Positions 9,619-60,888 of a stretch of DNA of 64,000 bases are shown here, one piece after another. How positions within the stretch are numbered: position 1 is the first letter of the stretch; every line of letters begins with the position of its first letter. Position numbers and translations under genes: made by a program. Under the pieces are notes generated by a model. It saw only the letters and a list, made by a program, of their open reading frames with translations. It had not been told where the DNA came from and made no database searches. This DNA is from an uncultured Elusimicrobia bacterium (lineage in GTDB: Bacteria > Elusimicrobiota > Elusimicrobia > UBA1565 > UBA9628): positions 1-64,000 of the forward strand of contig CAIKVT010000058.1 of NCBI GenBank assembly GCA_903830945.1, given 5' to 3'.

Positions 9619-10065
9619 CTAGAGTCCGTCGGAGTCGAGCCAGATGGTGACCGGGCCGTCGTTGAGTGACTCGATTGCCATGTGGGCTCCGAACTCCCCG
9701 GCGGCCACGCTCACGCCCGATGCGCAGAGCATCTGGCTGAAGCGCTCATAGAGGGGGCGGGCGAGGTCTGGATGGGCCGCGGCCGTGAAATCAGGCCGTC
9801 GGCCGCCCTTGGTGTTGGCGAATAGGGTGAACTGCGAGATGACCAGGGCCGAGCCTTTCTCATCGAGCAAGGACCTGTCGAACTTATTGTCGGCGTTGGA
9901 GAAAATCCTGAGATTGATTATCTTCTCCGCCAGCTTCTTGGCCGTCTCACCGGTATCGTCCTTGCCGACTCCCAGGTAGATGAGCAGGCCCTTGCCGATG
10001 GCGCGGGTCTCACCGCTGGGCAGGCGCACGCTGGCCCGTGATACTCGCTGAATGAGGGCGCGCAT
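9619..10065 (-). CDS. dtd: D-aminoacyl-tRNA deacylase
   Basis: A 148-residue protein matching Dtd along its whole length: MRALIQRVSRASV, the catalytic-pocket motif SQFTLFA, and the cross-subunit loop NDGPVTIWLD. It hydrolyses D-aminoacyl-tRNA and Gly-tRNAAla, and the length is standard. The ATG lies seven bases after TATAAT on the minus strand, preceded by TGC (an extended -10), and no Shine-Dalgarno is present, so a leaderless mRNA is predicted. It is divergent from thpR with only 19 bp between the start codons. Confidence 0.95.
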   Translation of the reverse strand: MRALIQRVSRASVRLPSGETRAIGKGLLIYLGVGKDDTGETAKKLAEKIINLRIFSNADNKFDRSLLDEKGSALVISQFTLFANTKGGRRPDFTAAAHPDLARPLYERFSQMLCASGVSVAAGEFGAHMAIESLNDGPVTIWLDSDGL

Positions 10066-10071
10066 AATTCG

Positions 10072-10078
10072 TATTATA
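10072..10078. promoter_or_regulatory. Shared bidirectional -10 element of dtd and thpR
   Basis: The heptamer TATTATA reads TATAAT on the minus strand (seven bases before the dtd ATG) and TATTAT on the plus strand (seven bases before the thpR GTG). One near-symmetrical -10 element can therefore serve both divergent leaderless genes. Confidence 0.55.
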
Positions 10079-10084
10079 GCAGAC

Positions 10085-10633
10085 GTGAGTCAGACGGCGC
10101 GGCTCTTCATCGCGGTCCCTGTTTCAGACGAGGTCCGTCTCGCCGCGGCGCGACTCATCGCGGAGCTGCGGCTCTCGGGAGCCGACTGCAAATGGGTGGA
10201 ACCTGAAAACCTGCATCTGACCTTGCGGTTCTTCGGGGAGACCCCGCTGGAGAGGATTCCGGTAATCGAGCACCTTATGCGCCGGGCCGCACAAAGGCCG
10301 CAGTTCGAAGTCTCATTCGGGGAAGTAGGCGCCTTCGATTCATGGGATGACCCTCAAGTGGTATGGGTGGGGGTGGGCAGCGGCGCGGCCGGCCTTGCGG
10401 CTTTGGCCGATGCTTTGAGGGCATCAGCGGAAGGCCGGCCCTTTTCAGCGCATCTGACCATCGGACGCAGGCGCAGCGGCACCGGCTGGGAGAGGCTCAG
10501 GGCGGCGGCGCTTCAGGCCGGATCACTGGAATCATGTCAGACCGTGGACAGGGTCGTCCTTTTTGAGAGTAGGCTGACGCTTCGAGGTCCGACATACTTG
10601 GTCCGCGGCGAGGCCCTGATGGGGAGGGGGTGA
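10085..10633 (+). CDS. thpR: RNA 2',3'-cyclic phosphodiesterase (2'-5' RNA ligase family)
   Basis: A 182-residue protein of the 2H phosphoesterase fold. Both catalytic HxTx motifs are visible: HLTLRFFGE and HLTIGR. RLFIAVPV marks the usual N-terminus. I choose the GTG start (VSQTARLFIAV) because the fold begins there and it lies seven bases after TATTAT; no Shine-Dalgarno is visible. It overlaps promoter space with divergent dtd and is followed after 10 bp by a ferredoxin-type gene. Confidence 0.9.
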   Translation: MSQTARLFIAVPVSDEVRLAAARLIAELRLSGADCKWVEPENLHLTLRFFGETPLERIPVIEHLMRRAAQRPQFEVSFGEVGAFDSWDDPQVVWVGVGSGAAGLAALADALRASAEGRPFSAHLTIGRRRSGTGWERLRAAALQAGSLESCQTVDRVVLFESRLTLRGPTYLVRGEALMGRG

Positions 10634-10643
10634 ATCCCGAATC

Positions 10644-11351
10644 ATGAAGCGCAAGATTATCCACATCGACGAGTCAAAATGCGACGGCTGCGGACTTTGC
10701 GCTTCGGCTTGCGCCGAAGGCGCCATCAGAATCATCGACGGCAAGGCCAAGCTGGTCAGCGAGACGTACTGCGATGGTCTAGGCGCATGCCTGGGGGGAT
10801 GTCCGCAGGGGGCTCTGACTATCGAGGAGCGCGAGGCCTCGGGATTCAGCGAAGAGGCTGTCAAGGAGCATGTGGAAAAAGAACAAGCTGCCGCGCCACC
10901 TCATGCCGCCAACCATGGCGGCTGTCCTTCTTCCAAGATGATGGATTTCGGACCAGCCCAGTCGGCCAAATCCGCCCTGTCCCATTGGCCAGTGCAGCTC
11001 CACCTCATCTCGCCGGCCGCTCCCTGTTTCCAGAACGCGGACATGGTCCTGGCCGCGGACTGCGTGGCCTATGCCCTGGGCGGTTTCCATGAGAATTACC
11101 TCCAGGGCCGGCGTTTGAGTATCGCCTGCCCCAAACTCGATTCGAACCAGGAAGAATACGCGGAGAAAATCCGCTGCCTCATCGACGAAGCCAAGATCAA
11201 TACGCTTGTGGTCATGATCATGCAGGTGCCATGCTGCTCCGGGCTGCTGGCCATGGCCAAGAGCGCGGCCCATAGAGCCAAACGCAAGATCCCTGTCAAG
11301 GCCGTAGTCGTAGGGCTCAAGGGCGATATCCTCTCCGAGGAGTGGGTCTAG
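10644..11351 (+). CDS. 4Fe-4S ferredoxin-domain protein
   Basis: A 235-residue cytosolic protein. The N-terminus is a ferredoxin domain with CDGCGLCASACAEGAI and a second cluster site CDGLGACLGGCPQGA. The remaining 170 residues form a globular domain with more cysteines (AAPCFQNADMV, ACPKLD, QVPCCSGLL). Homologues are annotated only as iron-sulfur binding proteins in anaerobes. The next gene, 30 bp downstream, is a flavoprotein, so the two may pass electrons to each other. The function is inferred from domain content only. Confidence 0.8.
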   Translation: MKRKIIHIDESKCDGCGLCASACAEGAIRIIDGKAKLVSETYCDGLGACLGGCPQGALTIEEREASGFSEEAVKEHVEKEQAAAPPHAANHGGCPSSKMMDFGPAQSAKSALSHWPVQLHLISPAAPCFQNADMVLAADCVAYALGGFHENYLQGRRLSIACPKLDSNQEEYAEKIRCLIDEAKINTLVVMIMQVPCCSGLLAMAKSAAHRAKRKIPVKAVVVGLKGDILSEEWV

Positions 11352-51061: not shown

Positions 51062-51886
51062 TTATTCCGGGTCGCCAGGTTTCCAGTGACTGGGTAACTT
51101 CTCTCCTTCGATTTGACCGGCATAATCCAACTTCAACTGACGGCAGCAATCTCCCCAATCATCGCTGCCATCTCTCATTTCACAAACACCGTAGGGAGTT
51201 TCGTATTTTCTAAAATATCGATAATCAAAACCTTTAGGAGCTTTGTACTGAACCCTATAACTTATCCAATTCTCATCTTTTAAACATTGATGCGGTTCAA
51301 CCTGGATATTCCCGGCATGAAATTCCATGTAACCGGTACATTCTTTCCTCACCGGATTTAAAGTAATTCCGGCAGAAAAGAACGTGGTCAAATGTTGATT
51401 TTCCAGTGCGCACGCATAATTTCCTTCCGGCTGGATATTCGGATCCCCCTGCCAATGCATTTTTTTTCTCGCTGGGATGTTGGGAACGTCTTCAAAAGCG
51501 ATCACTTTGAAGTTCAATTGCGTACAACAATCTTTATAAGCATCTTCATTCTTATGAATGATGCATTTTCCATAAGGGGTGCGAATTTCAACATAACCTA
51601 TCGCATGATGAGGCTTCCAAATTTCTGGGAGTTTATACTGCTGATGAGGATCCCCGGGGTAATGGTAGCCGCATTGTCTAGTCTCTTTATTGACGACCAG
51701 GACCGGCCCCATTTGAGCAGTCGCACCTTGATCTGTCATAAGAGGGAGTAAAAGCACAAACAAGATTAGACATTTTAAAAAGGTTTTAAAGGTCCCCCGA
51801 TCTGGGCGCGGCGAGGTACTCGAAGCGGGGTTATCTGCTATCTTTTCGCAGATTGGACTCACTGAGCCCCTATCCGTTCCAAGCAC
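51062..51886 (-). CDS. AT-rich, cysteine-rich exported protein with duplicated DCCxQL domain
   Basis: About 274 residues if read from the GTG that overlaps the atoE stop (TAGTG); the true start is unclear. A hydrophobic export segment (FLKCLILFVLLLPLMTDQGA) precedes two related modules. Module 1 has TPYGKCIIHKNEDAYKDCCT then QLNF. Module 2 has TPYGVCEMRDGSDDWGDCCR then QLKL. LPEIWKPHH and LPSHWKPGD form another related pair. Each module likely holds disulfides. Base composition is clearly AT-richer than all neighbours, which points to recent transfer. No family is recognised. Confidence 0.6.
   Translation of the reverse strand: MLGTDRGSVSPICEKIADNPASSTSPRPDRGTFKTFLKCLILFVLLLPLMTDQGATAQMGPVLVVNKETRQCGYHYPGDPHQQYKLPEIWKPHHAIGYVEIRTPYGKCIIHKNEDAYKDCCTQLNFKVIAFEDVPNIPARKKMHWQGDPNIQPEGNYACALENQHLTTFFSAGITLNPVRKECTGYMEFHAGNIQVEPHQCLKDENWISYRVQYKAPKGFDYRYFRKYETPYGVCEMRDGSDDWGDCCRQLKLDYAGQIEGEKLPSHWKPGDPE
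51804..51834 (+). repeat. Recurring ~30-nt motif, copy 2
   Basis: Core GGCGAGGTACTCGAAGCGGG, followed by GTTAT. It marks the boundary between atoE-side sequence and the AT-rich gene. Confidence 0.45.
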
Positions 51887-53304
51887 TATGAGAGGGTCCG
51901 CGCGAACAGCCAGCACAGCAGAAGCACCACCGGAACGTGGACGATGAGTTGCAGGACGCTGTATCCCACTAAATCGCGTGCTTTAAGGCCGAGGATGGCC
52001 AGTAGCGGCAGCATCCAGAAGGGATTGACCAGGTTGGGGAGGGCCTCGGCCGCGTTGTAGGTCTGCACCACCCAACCCAGATGCACGTGCTGAAGGCTAG
52101 CAGCCTTCAGCACGTAGGGCGCCTCGACAACCCATTTGCTCCCGCCGGAAGGAATGAATACGCCGAGCAGGGCTGAATAGAGTCCCAGCAGCAGCGGATA
52201 GGTCCCAGGCGTGCTCATCCGCGCGAAAAGATTCGCCAGCCAAGCCGATATGCCGGTGCCGGTGATCATGCCGAAGATGACGGCGTAAAATGGGAATTGG
52301 ATCAACACTCCTCCCGCGGCAGGCACGGCTCGGGCCACGGCGCGGGCAAAGCGTATGGGCCGCGCATGCAGGAGGAGCGCGGCCGTGATGAACAAAAGAT
52401 TGTAGGTATTGAGGTCGAGCGCGGCGAGCGCTCCGTGCGGCGAAATTAGAAAGACGTGGGCCAGGTACCAGCAGAGAATGCCCGCCATGAAGATGTTGAG
52501 CAGCGGGCTGTGCTCCAGCCACTCGCCGGGTTTGCTGGGGGCTTCGACTGTGGGATCGGGGGGAGTCAGATCCACTCCAAAGAACTCGGCTCCGCGCGCC
52601 TGCTCGGCGCCAGGAGCCGAATAGTAAGCGACGAGTACCGAGATGGCGATCAGGGTGCCGGCCAGCGCCAAGCTCTGCCATAAAAACAGCGTCTGGGTCA
52701 GGGGAATAAGTCCGCTGATCTCAAAGAGCGTCTGCGGCAGCGCTGACTTCGTCGCCATCATGAGGGCGGCCGAGGAAGAAAGCCCGAGCGCCCACACCGC
52801 CCCTAATCCGAGATAGGCCGCGGCGCCGGCCGCGCGATAATCCATGTTCTTCATTCGGCGCGCCAGCTCCTTGACCAGCAGGCCGCTAAAGATCAGGCTG
52901 AATCCCCAAGAGAGCAGAGAGGAGACCATGGAGAAGAATGCGACGAACGCCACGGCTCCTCTGGGAGTCTTCGGGATCCGCGCCAACCTCTCGATAAGGC
53001 GGGCGACCGCAGGCGCCGAGGCCACCGCGAATCCGCCGATAATGACCATGGCCATCTGCATGGTAAAGGGAACGAGCGACCAAAAGGCCTTACCACCCTC
53101 GATGGCCAAGCTGGAGGGCGATTGGCCGAGGCAAAGCCCCAACAGGAAGGTGACGAGAACGCCGAGAAAGGCGAACACCAGAGCGTCCGGGAACCAGTTT
53201 TCGGTCCATTGCGCCAGAGCGAGCCCTGCTCGCGCTAATAAGGAGTCTTCCCGATAGGTTGTAGGCGCAATATCCCCGCTTCGCCTAGCCGCCGCGCCTC
53301 TCAT
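51886..53304 (-). CDS. atoE: Short-chain fatty acid transporter AtoE family
   Basis: A 472-residue protein with about 12 membrane helices. Family landmarks: WTENWFPDALVFAFLGVLVT, SWGFSLIFSGLLVKELARRM, GKAFWSLVPFTMQMAMVIIG and FIPSGGSKWVVEAPYV. AtoE proteins carry short-chain acids such as butyrate or acetoacetate. A hairpin is found in its leader. Its neighbour across the intergenic region is the STAS-lyase fusion gene, on the opposite strand. Confidence 0.9.
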   Translation of the reverse strand: MRGAAARRSGDIAPTTYREDSLLARAGLALAQWTENWFPDALVFAFLGVLVTFLLGLCLGQSPSSLAIEGGKAFWSLVPFTMQMAMVIIGGFAVASAPAVARLIERLARIPKTPRGAVAFVAFFSMVSSLLSWGFSLIFSGLLVKELARRMKNMDYRAAGAAAYLGLGAVWALGLSSSAALMMATKSALPQTLFEISGLIPLTQTLFLWQSLALAGTLIAISVLVAYYSAPGAEQARGAEFFGVDLTPPDPTVEAPSKPGEWLEHSPLLNIFMAGILCWYLAHVFLISPHGALAALDLNTYNLLFITAALLLHARPIRFARAVARAVPAAGGVLIQFPFYAVIFGMITGTGISAWLANLFARMSTPGTYPLLLGLYSALLGVFIPSGGSKWVVEAPYVLKAASLQHVHLGWVVQTYNAAEALPNLVNPFWMLPLLAILGLKARDLVGYSVLQLIVHVPVVLLLCWLFARTLS

Positions 53305-53654: not shown

Positions 53655-54833
53655 ATGATCCAATCGCAATACAAGATTGTTGGAGAAGCGCTGGTTGTTT
53701 CGTTGATCGGCCGCCTCGATGCGACGACCTGGGAAAGCTTCTGGAACGGGTTGTTGCTGAAGCTTCAGGATGCTCCGAAGAAGCTGATTTTCGATCTGGC
53801 TGGATTGGAGTATATCAGCAGCGCAGGCATGCGCGTCTTTCTTCTGGCGGAGCGTCGGATGCGCGAAAAAGGCGGCTCAATAGAGTTGCGCAGCCCGGTC
53901 GAGATTGTCCGTAGGGCTCTGGAGATAAGCCAACTGCAGAGCCTATTCCCTATCATTGAGTCTGGCCGGAGCAAGGACAAACCGAAGGAACCGAGTGAGA
54001 CCCGGCTTTACGGCCATTCCGCCGGCGATGCCTTCCGCGACCGCCTAGCGACGCGCAGGATTCTTCCGTTGATAGGCATCTATGACGTCTTCTCCGCGCA
54101 ATTGGCCGCCAAGCGCTTCGAGGGAGTCTTCTGCAGCGGATTCGGATATGCCGCCAGCCAATACGGCTTACCCGACATCGGTTACGTGAATTGGCATGAT
54201 ATCATGGATTTCGCGACCCGCGTACGGCAGGTCCTGCCCGCGACCCATATCCTCGTGGATGTGGATGACGGGTTTGGCGAGGAGCCCATCGCGGCGAACA
54301 CCGTCAAGAACCTCGAGATGAACGGGGTTTCCGCGGTGATGATGGAGGACCAAAAACGGCCACGGCGCTGCGGACACTTCGAGGGCAAACAGGTGCTGGG
54401 CATGGAGCAGTACCTGGTCAAACTCAAAGCCGTGCTTGCGGCGCGCAAGCGCCTCTTCGTGATCGCGCGCACCGATGCCACGGACTGGAACGACGGCATG
54501 AAGCGGGCGGTCCTTTACGCCAAAGCCGGGGCGGATGCGGTGATGGTGGAGGCGGTGCATGATTTGAAGTACGTGGAGGAAGTGGCGCAGGCCGTGAAGG
54601 TCCCCCTGATGGTGAACCAGATCCACGGCGGCAAGAGCCCCAACTGGACCCTGCAGGAAATGGAGGCCGCGGGAGTGGCCATCGCGATCTTCAGCACTCC
54701 CTGCCTGTTCGCCGCCCAATACGCCATCGAGCGATACCTCGACCAAATGCAGAAGCATCATAAGCTCGTGGGCGAAAACACCGTCGGAATGGCTGAATGC
54801 GTGAAGATGCTCTATACGCCTCCCATGGGCTAG
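53655..54833 (+). CDS. STAS domain fused to isocitrate lyase/PEP mutase-family enzyme
   Basis: A 392-residue two-domain protein. Residues 1-105 form a STAS domain of the anti-sigma-antagonist type ([36 protein letters not shown]) with the Ser normally phosphorylated. Residues about 120-390 form an isocitrate lyase/PEP mutase barrel: [26 protein letters not shown], the lyase signature RRCGH (Cys239) and FVIARTDA. The catalytic Cys favours a methylisocitrate- or dimethylmalate-lyase-like C-C cleavage over phosphonate chemistry. It overlaps or nearly abuts the TauE gene (5 bp). Confidence 0.85.
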
Positions 54834-54837
54834 GATA

Positions 54838-55623
54838 ATGATCCCTTGGCACCCCGGCATGCTCACTCCCGGCCAGTATGGCTTGGCGGCATCGGCGGCG
54901 CTGGCCGCGGGGGCGGTCAATGCCCTTGCTGGCGGCGGGACCCTCATCAGCTTCCCCACGCTCATATTCCTCGGCGTGCCTGCCGTATCGGCGAACGTCA
55001 CCAATACGGTCGCACTCTGTCCCGGCTATTTTGGCGGGACGATGGCGCAGTGGGACGATCTAAGGACGCAGATCCGGAGGCTCTGGGTCGTCGTCCCGGC
55101 AAGCATCGCGGGTGGAATTTTCGGGGGATTCCTCCTGCTGCATACGGGAGAACGGCTATTCCGGGAATTGGTCCCTTGGTTGATTCTGCTGGCTTCGGGG
55201 CTGCTGGCGGTCCTGGACCCCGTCCGCGCCGGCCTGGAGCGGCGCATGGGAAAGAAATACGGCGCGAGTCTCGAGAAGCTCGTGGCCCTGCCCGTCGGAT
55301 TGGCCTCGATTTATGGCGGGTACTTCGGTGCGGGTTTGAGCGTAGTCGTCCTCTCCGTGCTGGGGATCACCCTCAAAGATTCGCTGACACGACTCAACGC
55401 GTTGAAACAGGCTGTCGCCTTTAGCGTCAATATAGCAGCAGCGATCTACCTTCTTTTCTCGGGTCAAGTCTTCTGGTCTGTCGCACTTGTCATGGCGGTC
55501 GGGGCGCTGGTCGGCGGGACGCTGGGCGGCAAGTTCGCCGGGCGCATAAAGCCGTCCGCGTTGCGCTGGACGGTGGTTGCCCTCGGGTTGGTCATTTCCG
55601 CCATCTATTTCTCTCGAGGATAG
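54838..55623 (+). CDS. TauE/SafE-family membrane exporter
   Basis: A 261-residue protein with about eight membrane helices. The two family repeats are [19 protein letters not shown] and [20 protein letters not shown]. TauE/SafE proteins export sulfite or organic acids such as sulfoacetate. It follows the STAS-lyase gene by 4 bp and is surely co-transcribed, suggesting it moves a product of that enzyme. Confidence 0.88.
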
Positions 55624-55652
55624 ATTTGCGGATACCAATCCTCCCGGCGACG

Positions 55653-56069
55653 ATGGATCAGAGACTCAAAAACCCCGACGACATGACGCCGGAAGAACGC
55701 TTGGACCGGATCGTGGAAATACTGGCCGAGGCCTCGGTCCGGCTCTTCTACAAGCAGCAGGGCAAGGCGGCCGAGCCCGCCGGCCCGCCTATCCCCGACA
55801 CCCCGGCCCAGGTGTATTGCCCGACGAAGCTGGGCCGGTTGCCTTTCGGACAGAAGGAGTTCGAGGGGCTGCGCGTCGAATCTCCCGACGAGGCGGCGTT
55901 GGTCAAGCGCATCTATGAGCTGGCGCGGGAGGGACTCTCCTCCGAGGCCATCGCCAAGCGGCTCAACCAAGAAGACAAGACGAGCAAGCGTTCGGGGAGG
56001 TGGTCGAGGGTCGCCGTGTGGCGGATACTCCGACGGCAACAGAAAAGGGCGTTACAGAATATTCCGTAA
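55653..56069 (+). CDS. Small recombinase-domain protein
   Basis: A 138-residue protein whose second half (LPFGQKEFEGLRVESPDEAA, IYELAREGLSSEAIAKRLNQ, GRWSRVAVWRILRRQQ) matches the DNA-binding 'Recombinase' domain of large serine recombinases. It lacks the catalytic resolvase domain. The N-terminal part has a helix (TPEERLDRIVEILAEASVRL). It may be a stand-alone regulator derived from a recombinase or a relic of an integrated element. It lies beside tRNA-Asp. A TTG start at 55626 is also possible. Confidence 0.65.
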   Translation: MDQRLKNPDDMTPEERLDRIVEILAEASVRLFYKQQGKAAEPAGPPIPDTPAQVYCPTKLGRLPFGQKEFEGLRVESPDEAALVKRIYELAREGLSSEAIAKRLNQEDKTSKRSGRWSRVAVWRILRRQQKRALQNIP

Positions 56070-56223: not shown

Positions 56224-56302
56224 TGGCGGGGTCGACGGGATTTGAACCCGCGGTCTCTGCCTTGACAGGGCAGCGTGTTAAACCAGGCTACACCACGACC
56301 CC
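56224..56302 (-). tRNA. tRNA-Asp (GTC), CCA encoded
   Basis: The minus strand folds as a cloverleaf: acceptor GGGGTCG / CGACCCC, anticodon stem-loop CTGCC CTGTCAA GGCAG with anticodon GTC, and T arm GCGGG TTCAAAT CCCGT. Discriminator G is followed by genome-encoded CCA. Length is 79 nt with CCA because of a long D loop. Confidence 0.95.
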
Positions 56303-56348
56303 AAAATCGAGTCAGCCACTATACCAAATTCCGAGCTACGGAAAAACT

Positions 56349-56420
56349 TGGGTCGTGTAGGATTTGAACCTACGACCCTTCGCGTGTAAGGCGAATGCTC
56401 TACCGCTGAGCTAACGACCC
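56349..56420 (-). tRNA. tRNA-Val (TAC)
   Basis: Cloverleaf on the minus strand: acceptor GGGTCGT / ACGACCC, anticodon stem-loop TTCGC CTTACAC GCGAA with anticodon TAC, and T arm CGTAG GTTCAAATC CTACA. Discriminator A; CCA is not encoded. TAAAAT lies nine bases upstream (56435-56430), so it probably heads a two-tRNA unit with tRNA-Asp. Confidence 0.95.
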
Positions 56421-57533: not shown

Positions 57534-57625
57534 ACATGGACGATGGATTGACAGAATAGAACCCAACAGTTACACTTTGCGAGCTCGTCGCGACCGTGCG
57601 GGCACTCGAATATAAATTTTTAATC

Positions 57626-60070
57626 ATGAAGAAAACGACGGTCTGGGACGTCGTCATTGGATTTATCCTCACGCTGTGCGTTTTGGCGGCCTATTCCCTG
57701 AGCTGGCCCCCCTTCGAGGGCATCGAGCTCAAGTTCTATGACGTGCGATCCAAGCTCCGGCAGAATTTTGCCGTGGCTGACGAGGTCGTGCTCGTATCGA
57801 TAGACGACAGCTCCCTGGCTGCCGTTGGCCGCTGGCCATGGCCGCGCTGGCGCCTGGCGACCTTGGTCGACAAGCTTTCGTCCGCGGGAGCCAAGGTCGT
57901 GGGCCTCGATATCGTGTTCTCCGATGATGAATATAACCCGGGCCTGACTGAGATCAAACGCCTGCAGGACCGCTACGCGGGACTTGTCAGCTCCCGTGCC
58001 GTCATGGACAAGAGGAAGGTCTTCGACTTGGAATTCTCCTCCGCCATGGCTCATCTCGAATCGGACTCCAAGTTGGAAGCGTCTCTGCGGAAGGCCGGCA
58101 ACGTGGTTTTGTCCATGTTTTTCTCTCAGGGCGGCAAGTTCGGGATCAAGCCGGAGACGCTTCCGGTCGCGGTGTCGAGTTTTGCCGTCGCCCACGAAGC
58201 CGTGGCCGGGGTCCTGGAACTTCCCAGCCCGGACGGCCTTAAGGCTGTCTTCCCCATCGTGAGGTTTGCCTCGGTTTGCGCCGGCATAGGCCATATCAAT
58301 ACCACGCAGGACTGCGACGGCGTTTTGCGTCGAGAAATCCCGGTCTTCCGTTATGCGGACTCCTATTTTCCTTCCTATGCGCTGGAACTGGTCATGGCCT
58401 ATAGCGGGCTCAGCCCGCAGGAGGCGGTCTTTCAGCCAGGCCGTGAGGTCCGTGTGGGGAAGATCGCCATCCCGCTTGATGATGATAGCCGCATGATCAT
58501 TTCTTTCAATGGTCCGGAAGGGACCTTCCGATCCTTTACTTATCAGGACGTGATGAATGACAAGGTCTCCCCGGATGCCTTTGCCGGCAAGATCGTTATC
58601 GTCGGGCTGACGGCTTCTGCGGCGGCAACGCTCTTCACCACGCCCTTGGCCAACAACTTCCCGCCTATCGAGCTGACCGCCAATGTCATTGAGAATATCC
58701 TGCACCGCAGGTTCCTCACGCGGCCCCTTTGGGCCGTGAAGTTTGAGCTGGGCATCTTGTTGGCCGTTGGGTTATTCATCATGTTCGTGTTGCCCCGTTT
58801 GAAAGTTCTTTCGGGTCTGGCGGTCAGCGTTATTCTCTTGGGGGGGTTGGTCGCCGTCGGCATCTATCCGTTCGTTGGCAATGGCTACTGGATCAAGGTC
58901 GCCTACCCTGCGATTCTGCTTATTTTGGCTGATCTGGTCGTCATCTTTAAGTGCTTCCTCATTACGGAGAAGGGTCAGGATGTCGCGGTCATGATCCCCG
59001 GGCCCGCGGCCTCTGTCGACGGAGCGCTCTCCGGGGGCAGCGGCGAAGCCAAGAGGGAAGGCGCGGCGGTTGTCACGGGCGGCGATGTGAAATCCACTTT
59101 GGGACGCTATGAGATCGAGAAGGAACTTGGCCGCGGAGCCATGGGAGTCGTGTATCTGGGCCGCGACCCGAAAATCAACCGGCAGGTGGCCATCAAGACT
59201 ATCATCTTCGATGAGGGTTCGGACGCTGCCGCGACCAATGGGATCAAAGAACGCTTCTTTCGGGAGGCGGAGTCGGCCGGGACCCTCAACCATCCCAACA
59301 TCGTGCGCATCTTCGACGCGGGCGAGGAGGCTGAAGTGGCTTTTATCGCCATGGAGCTGCTCGACGGGAACGACTTCACGCGCTACACCCAGAAGGGGGG
59401 CCTGCTGCCCGTGCCTCAGGCCCTGGAGTACGTCGCCATCGTCGCCGACGCCCTTGACTACGCCCACGCCCAGGGGATCGTGCATCGGGATATCAAGCCG
59501 GCCAATATCATGCTCCTTAAGGATGGGACGATCCGTGTCGCCGACTTTGGAATCGCCCGCATCATCGCCTCGACCAAGACGGCCACGGGCATGGTTCTGG
59601 GAACGTTGTCCTACATGAGCCCGGAGCAGATGGCGGGCAAGAAGGTGGATGGCCGCTCCGATATCTTCTCGTTGACCGTCGCCCTTTACGAGCTGCTGAC
59701 TGGCGAGCGGCCCTTCAGGGGCGGGGAGGGCCTCGGGCCCTTGCTGTTCCAGATCGCCAATGACCATCATCCCGATCCCCGCACCGTGCGGCCGGACTTG
59801 CCGCACTGCGTGGTCCCTATCCTCGATAAAGGCTTGGCCAAGGATCCGGACCAGCGTTACGCTCGCGCGGCATTACTGGCCGCTGATTTGCGGGCATGTG
59901 TCGCGGCCATCCAATCCGGCATCTTCACCGCAGAGTCCACCCAGCCTCCCCTGCCGCCGGCCGCGCCGTCCCCCGCTGTCGTCGCTGTGCCGGCGGCGGC
60001 TCCGGCCTCCGATGTGGCCATCCGTCTGCCTCCCCGCGGGGCAGAGACCCCTGGCCCGGATGAGCCGTGA
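57626..60070 (+). CDS. CHASE2-sensor Ser/Thr protein kinase
   Basis: An 814-residue membrane kinase. After one helix (VVIGFILTLCVLAAYSLSW) comes a periplasmic CHASE2 domain (VVLVSIDDSSLAAVGRWPWP, AKVVGLDIVFSDDEYNPG), then three membrane helices, and from about residue 490 a Hanks-type kinase: GRGAMGVVYLGRD, Lys in VAIKTI, HRDIKPANIML, ADFGIAR, MSPEQMAG. A Pro/Ala-rich tail ends the protein. It overlaps the PP2C gene by 4 bp. The signal sensed is unknown. Confidence 0.93.
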   Translation: MKKTTVWDVVIGFILTLCVLAAYSLSWPPFEGIELKFYDVRSKLRQNFAVADEVVLVSIDDSSLAAVGRWPWPRWRLATLVDKLSSAGAKVVGLDIVFSDDEYNPGLTEIKRLQDRYAGLVSSRAVMDKRKVFDLEFSSAMAHLESDSKLEASLRKAGNVVLSMFFSQGGKFGIKPETLPVAVSSFAVAHEAVAGVLELPSPDGLKAVFPIVRFASVCAGIGHINTTQDCDGVLRREIPVFRYADSYFPSYALELVMAYSGLSPQEAVFQPGREVRVGKIAIPLDDDSRMIISFNGPEGTFRSFTYQDVMNDKVSPDAFAGKIVIVGLTASAAATLFTTPLANNFPPIELTANVIENILHRRFLTRPLWAVKFELGILLAVGLFIMFVLPRLKVLSGLAVSVILLGGLVAVGIYPFVGNGYWIKVAYPAILLILADLVVIFKCFLITEKGQDVAVMIPGPAASVDGALSGGSGEAKREGAAVVTGGDVKSTLGRYEIEKELGRGAMGVVYLGRDPKINRQVAIKTIIFDEGSDAAATNGIKERFFREAESAGTLNHPNIVRIFDAGEEAEVAFIAMELLDGNDFTRYTQKGGLLPVPQALEYVAIVADALDYAHAQGIVHRDIKPANIMLLKDGTIRVADFGIARIIASTKTATGMVLGTLSYMSPEQMAGKKVDGRSDIFSLTVALYELLTGERPFRGGEGLGPLLFQIANDHHPDPRTVRPDLPHCVVPILDKGLAKDPDQRYARAALLAADLRACVAAIQSGIFTAESTQPPLPPAAPSPAVVAVPAAAPASDVAIRLPPRGAETPGPDEP

Positions 60071-60888
60071 GCATGAAGCTCGTCTGGGATTTTTTCGGCA
60101 GGACTGACTCCGGTTGCGTGCGTTCCAACAACGAGGACAACTGGGGCATCGACGCGGTTCTGGGCCTGCTGATCGTGGCCGACGGGATGGGCGGGCACAA
60201 TTCGGGGGAGGTGGCCAGCGGCCTGGCCGTTTCGACCATCCTGGAGACCGCGCGCCGTGTGTTCGGGGGAGAGAAGATTTTTTCCCCGGAGGGCGGTGTT
60301 TCGGGCTTGTCGGTGGGCTGCCGACGCCTGGAATATTTTATCAAGACCGCCAACGCCGTCATCTATGAGAAGGGCCGGGCTTTCCCCAGGGATGCGGGCA
60401 TGGGTACGACCGTGGTCGCGGTCTTGGCTGAAGAGCGAGCCCTGAGCGTGGCCCATGTCGGCGACAGTCGCCTTTATCTGTTCCGCGGGGGCGTCTTGAG
60501 TCAGTTGACCCAGGACCATTCACTGGTCGGCGACCAGTTGCGCCAGGGCCTCATCACTCTTGAGGCGGCGGCGCGCTCCACCTTGCAGAACATCCTGACC
60601 CGTGCCGTGGGCGCGGAGCCGGTGGTCGATGTCGACGTCATGGATCATCCGGTCCAGCCCGGGGACGTGGTCCTCCTGATGACCGATGGCCTTAATAAGA
60701 TGGTCGGCGATGAGCAACTCGCCGCGGTGCTGGCTCGGGAATCGTCCTCGGCGCAGGTGGTAGACACCCTGGTGGATATGGCCCGCCGGGCCGGGGGATT
60801 GGATAATATCACGGTGATCTGCGGCCGCCTGAATGCGGTCCCTGCGCGGGGATTCTGGCAGCAGGTTCTGCGGTTATGGGAGCGTTGA
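60067..60888 (+). CDS. PP2C-family Ser/Thr protein phosphatase
   Basis: A 273-residue cytosolic metal-dependent phosphatase: RSNNEDNWGID, LIVADGMGGHNSGEVAS, GMGTTVVAV, SVAHVGDSRLYLF and LMTDGLNKMV, with GGLDNITVICGRL near the end. The GTG start overlaps the kinase stop (GTGA); an ATG two codons later is an alternative. It almost certainly reverses the action of the kinase encoded just upstream. Confidence 0.93.
   Translation: MSMKLVWDFFGRTDSGCVRSNNEDNWGIDAVLGLLIVADGMGGHNSGEVASGLAVSTILETARRVFGGEKIFSPEGGVSGLSVGCRRLEYFIKTANAVIYEKGRAFPRDAGMGTTVVAVLAEERALSVAHVGDSRLYLFRGGVLSQLTQDHSLVGDQLRQGLITLEAAARSTLQNILTRAVGAEPVVDVDVMDHPVQPGDVVLLMTDGLNKMVGDEQLAAVLARESSSAQVVDTLVDMARRAGGLDNITVICGRLNAVPARGFWQQVLRLWER

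Follow-up and report, generated by a model that had tools for sequence, protein, structure and literature searches.

A STAS domain fused to an ICL/PEP-mutase superfamily lyase in an uncultured Elusimicrobia bacterium, with a possible role in oxalate formation

The best-known roles of STAS domains lie in the regulation of sigma factors, stressosomes, and SulP transporters. An open reading frame of an uncultured Elusimicrobia bacterium joins a STAS domain to an enzyme of the isocitrate lyase (ICL)/PEP-mutase superfamily, and thereby raises two questions: which reaction does the enzyme catalyze, and what does a STAS domain do on it? Both are addressed here through the window, i.e., the whole 64,000-nucleotide stretch of DNA that was analysed, and through the genomes that carry related lyases.

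The fusion gene and its STAS domain

The gene occupies positions 53655..54833 of the window (+ strand, as do all features of the gene given below) and encodes 392 residues in a single open frame from ATG to TAG. It contains the two domains that the initial annotation proposed, and Pfam finds both. The STAS domain spans residues 6-102 (53670..53960; 5.9e-13) and also exceeds the cut-off of the NCBIfam model ant_ant_sig (60.1 vs 53.45 bits). The ICL/PEP-mutase superfamily barrel, residues 124-368 (54024..54758), is recognized by Pfam (PEP_mutase PF13714, 6.6e-38, residues 127-364) and by structural matches of its model. The linker between them, residues 103-123 (53961..54023), has no start codon: ATG, GTG, and TTG are all absent from frame 0 across residues 95-125, so an independent start of the barrel within the linker is impossible. 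A misassembly or a frameshift had initially been raised as what might underlie the fusion. The start-free linker, together with stops in both other frames across the same residues, rules out a frameshift fusion and likewise two overlapping genes. Third-position GC, 0.66 in the STAS part and 0.80 in the barrel, indicates that both parts are coding in one frame. A promoter scan returned no more than chance.

That an assembly artefact joined two unrelated genes is very improbable. Only one assembly carries the fusion, but it lies on a contig of 233 kb, the join is in frame at a domain border without a homopolymer, and neither part has a near-identical copy elsewhere in the genome. As sequence, the fusion is almost certainly sound.

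By sequence, the STAS part resembles anti-anti-sigma factors of the SpoIIAA/RsbV type. Its motif reads LEYISSAG, a small correction to the D-x-x-SSAG first given, and includes Ser55-Ser56 (53817..53822), of which Ser56 is presumably the phospho-acceptor, by homology to SpoIIAA. The same motif occurs in the stand-alone STAS proteins of this genome that have adjacent kinases. To the genome's stand-alone STAS proteins in general, the STAS domain of the fusion shows a resemblance of 27-34%. Unlike SpoIIAA/RsbV-type factors, this domain is followed by an enzyme, has no kinase gene beside it, and lacks the final short stretch of the stand-alone sequences, which the linker replaces. The check for adjacent SpoIIAB-like kinases that the initial annotation suggested has a mixed outcome: there is no SpoIIAB-like GHKL kinase among the neighbouring genes read around the fusion gene, and two are encoded on other contigs of the genome, C29 and C82, each beside its own STAS gene. 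Near one of these pairs lies a gene for a Cache-HAMP-SpoIIE phosphatase. Downstream of the fusion gene, at a distance of about 2.8 kb, a CHASE2-Ser/Thr protein kinase gene overlaps a PP2C phosphatase gene (57596-60888). A further protein, encoded beside a STAS gene at L076:2310-3839 (-), combines a SpoIIAB-like ATPase domain with about 370 C-terminal residues that have no Pfam match. Taking the fusion as real, we regard regulation of the lyase by STAS phosphorylation as possible, if doubtful.

Distribution and family of the lyase

The full protein was searched against 57 relatives and 340 genomes of the host phylum on the host side, against 345 genomes of the phylum and 175 of the family of a Nitrospira hit, and against 387 genomes of the phylum and 177 of the order of an Opitutales hit. 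With overlaps considered, this amounts to about 1,300 genomes from three phyla, the two beyond the host's being samples. A second STAS-lyase fusion is found neither in these genomes nor in the plasmids, phages, and viral contigs searched, and a full-text literature search found no description of the layout, which agrees with its having been flagged as unusual. The lyase clade itself is absent from the other 6 host-genus genomes (7 were searched, host included), and no lyase of similar identity occurs in the rest of the host phylum. The nearest relatives, from Nitrospira UBA2083 (61% identity) and three Opitutales-order genomes (59-62%), are lyases without a STAS domain, whose match starts only beyond STAS, around residue 97-118. 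This scatter of the closest lyases across phyla suggests that the lyase was acquired by horizontal transfer. A viral or phage origin was considered and rejected: viral contigs contain no relative, and phages give unrelated prpB-type matches only. Directly after the permease gene that follows the fusion gene comes a gene (55626-56069) whose small product contains a partial Recombinase domain; genes for tRNA-Asp and tRNA-Val follow shortly after it on the opposite strand (56224-56420). Together they possibly mark an island border.

Two further features of related loci may be recorded here. The Opitutales lyase of genome G341 (L002:5947-6846) is interrupted by an in-frame TAA and is intact in two other genomes of the order. 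In a host-family relative, L011:1030-3525 (-) encodes a malate synthase fused to an isocitrate lyase, and similarly long frames match in several other members of the family.

Both catalytic motifs reported initially are intact. The metal-binding loop DVDDGFGEE (residues 202-210; 54258..54284) is kept in the clade, and in RRCGH (residues 237-241; 54363..54377), which contains the presumed catalytic Cys239, residues C239, G240, and H241 are invariant in alignment A1. The best NCBIfam model for the enzyme part is prpB (4e-53), with a score of 180.4 bits against a cut-off of 354.4, i.e., about half. Phylogenetically, the window lyase is placed with its Nitrospira and Opitutales relatives (support 100/99). 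This group in turn joins proteins from Nitrospirota and Streptomycetaceae, again with 100/99, and the methylisocitrate lyases fall outside. The enzyme is therefore not an ordinary methylisocitrate lyase: its prpB score is well under the cut-off, the genome has no PrpD-family match, and the clade that contains it is distinct and has full support.

Individual residues bear on the substrate. Ser347 (54693..54695) stands where fungal oxaloacetate acetylhydrolase (OAH) also has serine, the residue that marks OAH, and where methylisocitrate lyases have proline. The comparison of this marker position used L072-L074 and left out the reverse-strand loci L036-L038, L040, L043, and L049-L052; the serine is not specific to the clade, because L004, a more distant lyase outside it, has serine too. 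The TEFG of methylisocitrate lyases is replaced by IHGG. The EDK-x5-NS loop of PEP mutase is absent and a CGH loop stands in its place; PEP mutase chemistry is unlikely because the gating loop retains CGH.

The structural comparison used the barrel alone of an AlphaFold model built from three sequences (mean pLDDT 58.8; most of the STAS part and of the linker is <60), and how the two domains sit relative to each other was left uninterpreted. The best matches of this low-confidence barrel model are methylisocitrate lyases, dimethylmalate lyase, and oxaloacetate acetylhydrolase (Z 26-28). Over the whole fold, methylisocitrate lyase scores slightly above OAH (Z 28 vs 27 with the same low-confidence model), which counts against OAH; for the C-terminal 76 residues, OAH is the best solved match, weakly (3e-4) and with methylisocitrate lyase close to it. 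The window lyase thus shares with fungal OAH (PDB 3lye, 3m0j, 3m0k) the superfamily barrel, the metal loop, the CGH gating loop, and the serine at Ser347, and differs from it in being bacterial, fused to STAS, and about 28% identical in structural alignment. With PrpB it shares the DxDxGxG and [KR]RCGH motifs and has its best overall sequence and structure scores, but it falls far under the family cut-off and departs from PrpB at the IHGG and Ser347 positions.

Oxalate-ligase homologues and permeases beside the lyases

The evidence that directs attention to oxalate comes from gene neighbourhoods. In all four Nitrospira-phylum genomes that carry the clade (L072, L073, L074, and L001), the lyase adjoins an adenylating enzyme or lies a few genes from it. 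Among 345 genomes of this phylum, the lyase clade is present in 4 and an oxalate-ligase-like homologue (counted at E<=1e-90) in 6, and all 4 are among the 6; by a hand calculation that assumes independent genomes, such co-occurrence has a chance probability of about 3e-8. The ligases of L072, L074, and L001 have plant and yeast oxalate-CoA ligases as their best solved structures (1e-115 to 1e-129), compared with 1e-65 for FadD13 in one comparison, and the L073 ligase is about 71% identical to that of L074. Residues equivalent to His214, Ser289, and His319 of Arabidopsis AAE3, which we take to be its oxalate contacts, are kept in 4 of 4 lyase-linked ligases. The His319 position is proline in two same-sample homologues that have no detected clade lyase beside them, as well as in the host's own acyl-CoA ligase. 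No oxalate ligase close to these is encoded by the host (best match 33%), and the oxalate link therefore rests on the relatives.

The clusters at L072, L073, L074, and L001 comprise the oxalate-ligase homologue, carrier-protein domains, NRPS modules or transferases, and the clade lyase; their products are predicted to carry an oxalyl unit. L073 also encodes an enzyme of the oxalyl-CoA decarboxylase/2-hydroxyacyl-CoA lyase family. This thiamine enzyme raised the possibility of a phosphonate pathway (PEP mutase plus phosphonopyruvate decarboxylase), which was rejected: the lyase has the CGH loop, and the thiamine enzyme is of the acetolactate synthase/oxalyl-CoA decarboxylase kind rather than a phosphonopyruvate decarboxylase.

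In the window, a TauE/SafE (TSUP) permease gene (54838..55623, + strand; Pfam 2.3e-38) starts 4 bases past the stop of the fusion gene; its protein may export the product. The lyase of the Opitutales-order locus L097 also has a TauE/SafE gene next to it, here upstream on the same strand at a distance of about 220 bases. Although assigned to one Pfam family, the two permeases show no pairwise similarity, which counts against the oxalate reading. Two Opitutales-order loci have neither a ligase nor a permease beside the lyase, and Streptomycetaceae carry the clade lyase in other clusters, e.g., an NRPS-independent siderophore cluster; both observations count against the oxalate reading. What most simply unites the neighbourhoods is oxalate: the lyase would make it, and export or activation would follow.

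The siderophore cluster lies on an Embleya plasmid (L034:5066-17951) and contains two IucA/IucC genes, a PLP synthase, a PLP decarboxylase, a siderophore-interacting protein, and the clade lyase (9992-10852), which possibly stands there in place of the SbnG citrate synthase.

Candidate reactions and the role of the STAS domain

The account that we tentatively favour, at somewhat short of an even chance, is that of a lyase converting oxaloacetate to oxalate and acetate, with an adjoining exporter and with STAS as a regulator or docking module. The enzyme would hydrolyse oxaloacetate in the manner of fungal OAH, and the permease encoded next to it would export the anion; in the Nitrospirota relatives, oxalate would instead be adenylated and then loaded on a carrier protein. 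STAS would either anchor the enzyme on a kinase or other protein of a partner-switching system, or control it by phosphorylation of Ser56. We infer the substrate, the export, and any regulation by STAS. For oxalate formation from oxaloacetate taken by itself, we put the likelihood near to, and still below, one half. A narrower form of the proposal, in which a bacterial OAH has its oxalate output switched by phosphorylation of the built-in STAS domain and coupled to its own exporter, with the cell's partner-switching kinases and its SpoIIE phosphatase setting the phosphorylation state, is quite improbable.

Of the other reactions, methylisocitrate cleavage (or that of a 2-alkylmalate or isocitrate-type substrate) would act on propionate or short-chain acids from a neighbouring transporter, again with STAS as regulator. 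A divergent gene for a short-chain fatty acid transporter does lie nearby (51886-53304; Pfam), prpB is the best family model, the catalytic motifs are common to both, and methylisocitrate lyases are the top structural matches. Yet we consider this unlikely: the score of 180 bits stands against a cut-off of 354, the substrate-marker positions read IHGG for TEFG and Ser347 for Pro, the clade is set apart in the tree, and the genome has no PrpD-family (PF03972) match, although other dehydratases could replace PrpD. A biosynthetic lyase that acts on an oxalate-derived or other 2-oxo acid, for example by condensing a citrate-like or oxalyl-derived block without releasing oxalate, would suit the thiotemplate and siderophore clusters of the relatives, the resemblance in content of the Embleya cluster to the staphyloferrin B genes, and the chemical versatility of the superfamily. 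The window, however, holds no such cluster around the fusion gene, and condensation is unfavourable for most ICL/PEP-mutase superfamily members; this, too, we judge to be improbable. The initial annotation had proposed methylisocitrate, dimethylmalate, and phosphonopyruvate as substrates to assay; our results favour oxaloacetate as the first candidate, oxalate being the product.

A different doubt concerns STAS itself, which might be a by-product of a recent fusion or insertion with no regulatory role, the lyase acting as its unfused relatives do. Restriction of the fusion to a single genome, the lack of a comparable lyase in the rest of the phylum, the Recombinase-domain gene with two tRNA genes close by, and the lower third-position GC of the STAS part are in keeping with this. 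The clean frame and a motif as intact as that of the genome's dedicated STAS proteins argue the other way, and we regard this possibility as somewhat unlikely.

A 2024 review describes bacterial oxalate synthesis as a knowledge gap and gives the obc genes of Burkholderia as the known case (PMC11045627). Burkholderia Obc1/ObcAB forms oxalate from oxaloacetate (PMC5028181), as predicted for the window lyase, but the Obc1 reaction consumes acetyl-CoA and produces acetoacetate. Quite apart from the fusion, the comparison made here leads us to predict that a clade of bacterial enzymes forms oxalate. If the role proposed for the STAS domain is true, a metabolic lyase with such a domain directly attached would offer a simple route to partner-switching control of carbon flux.
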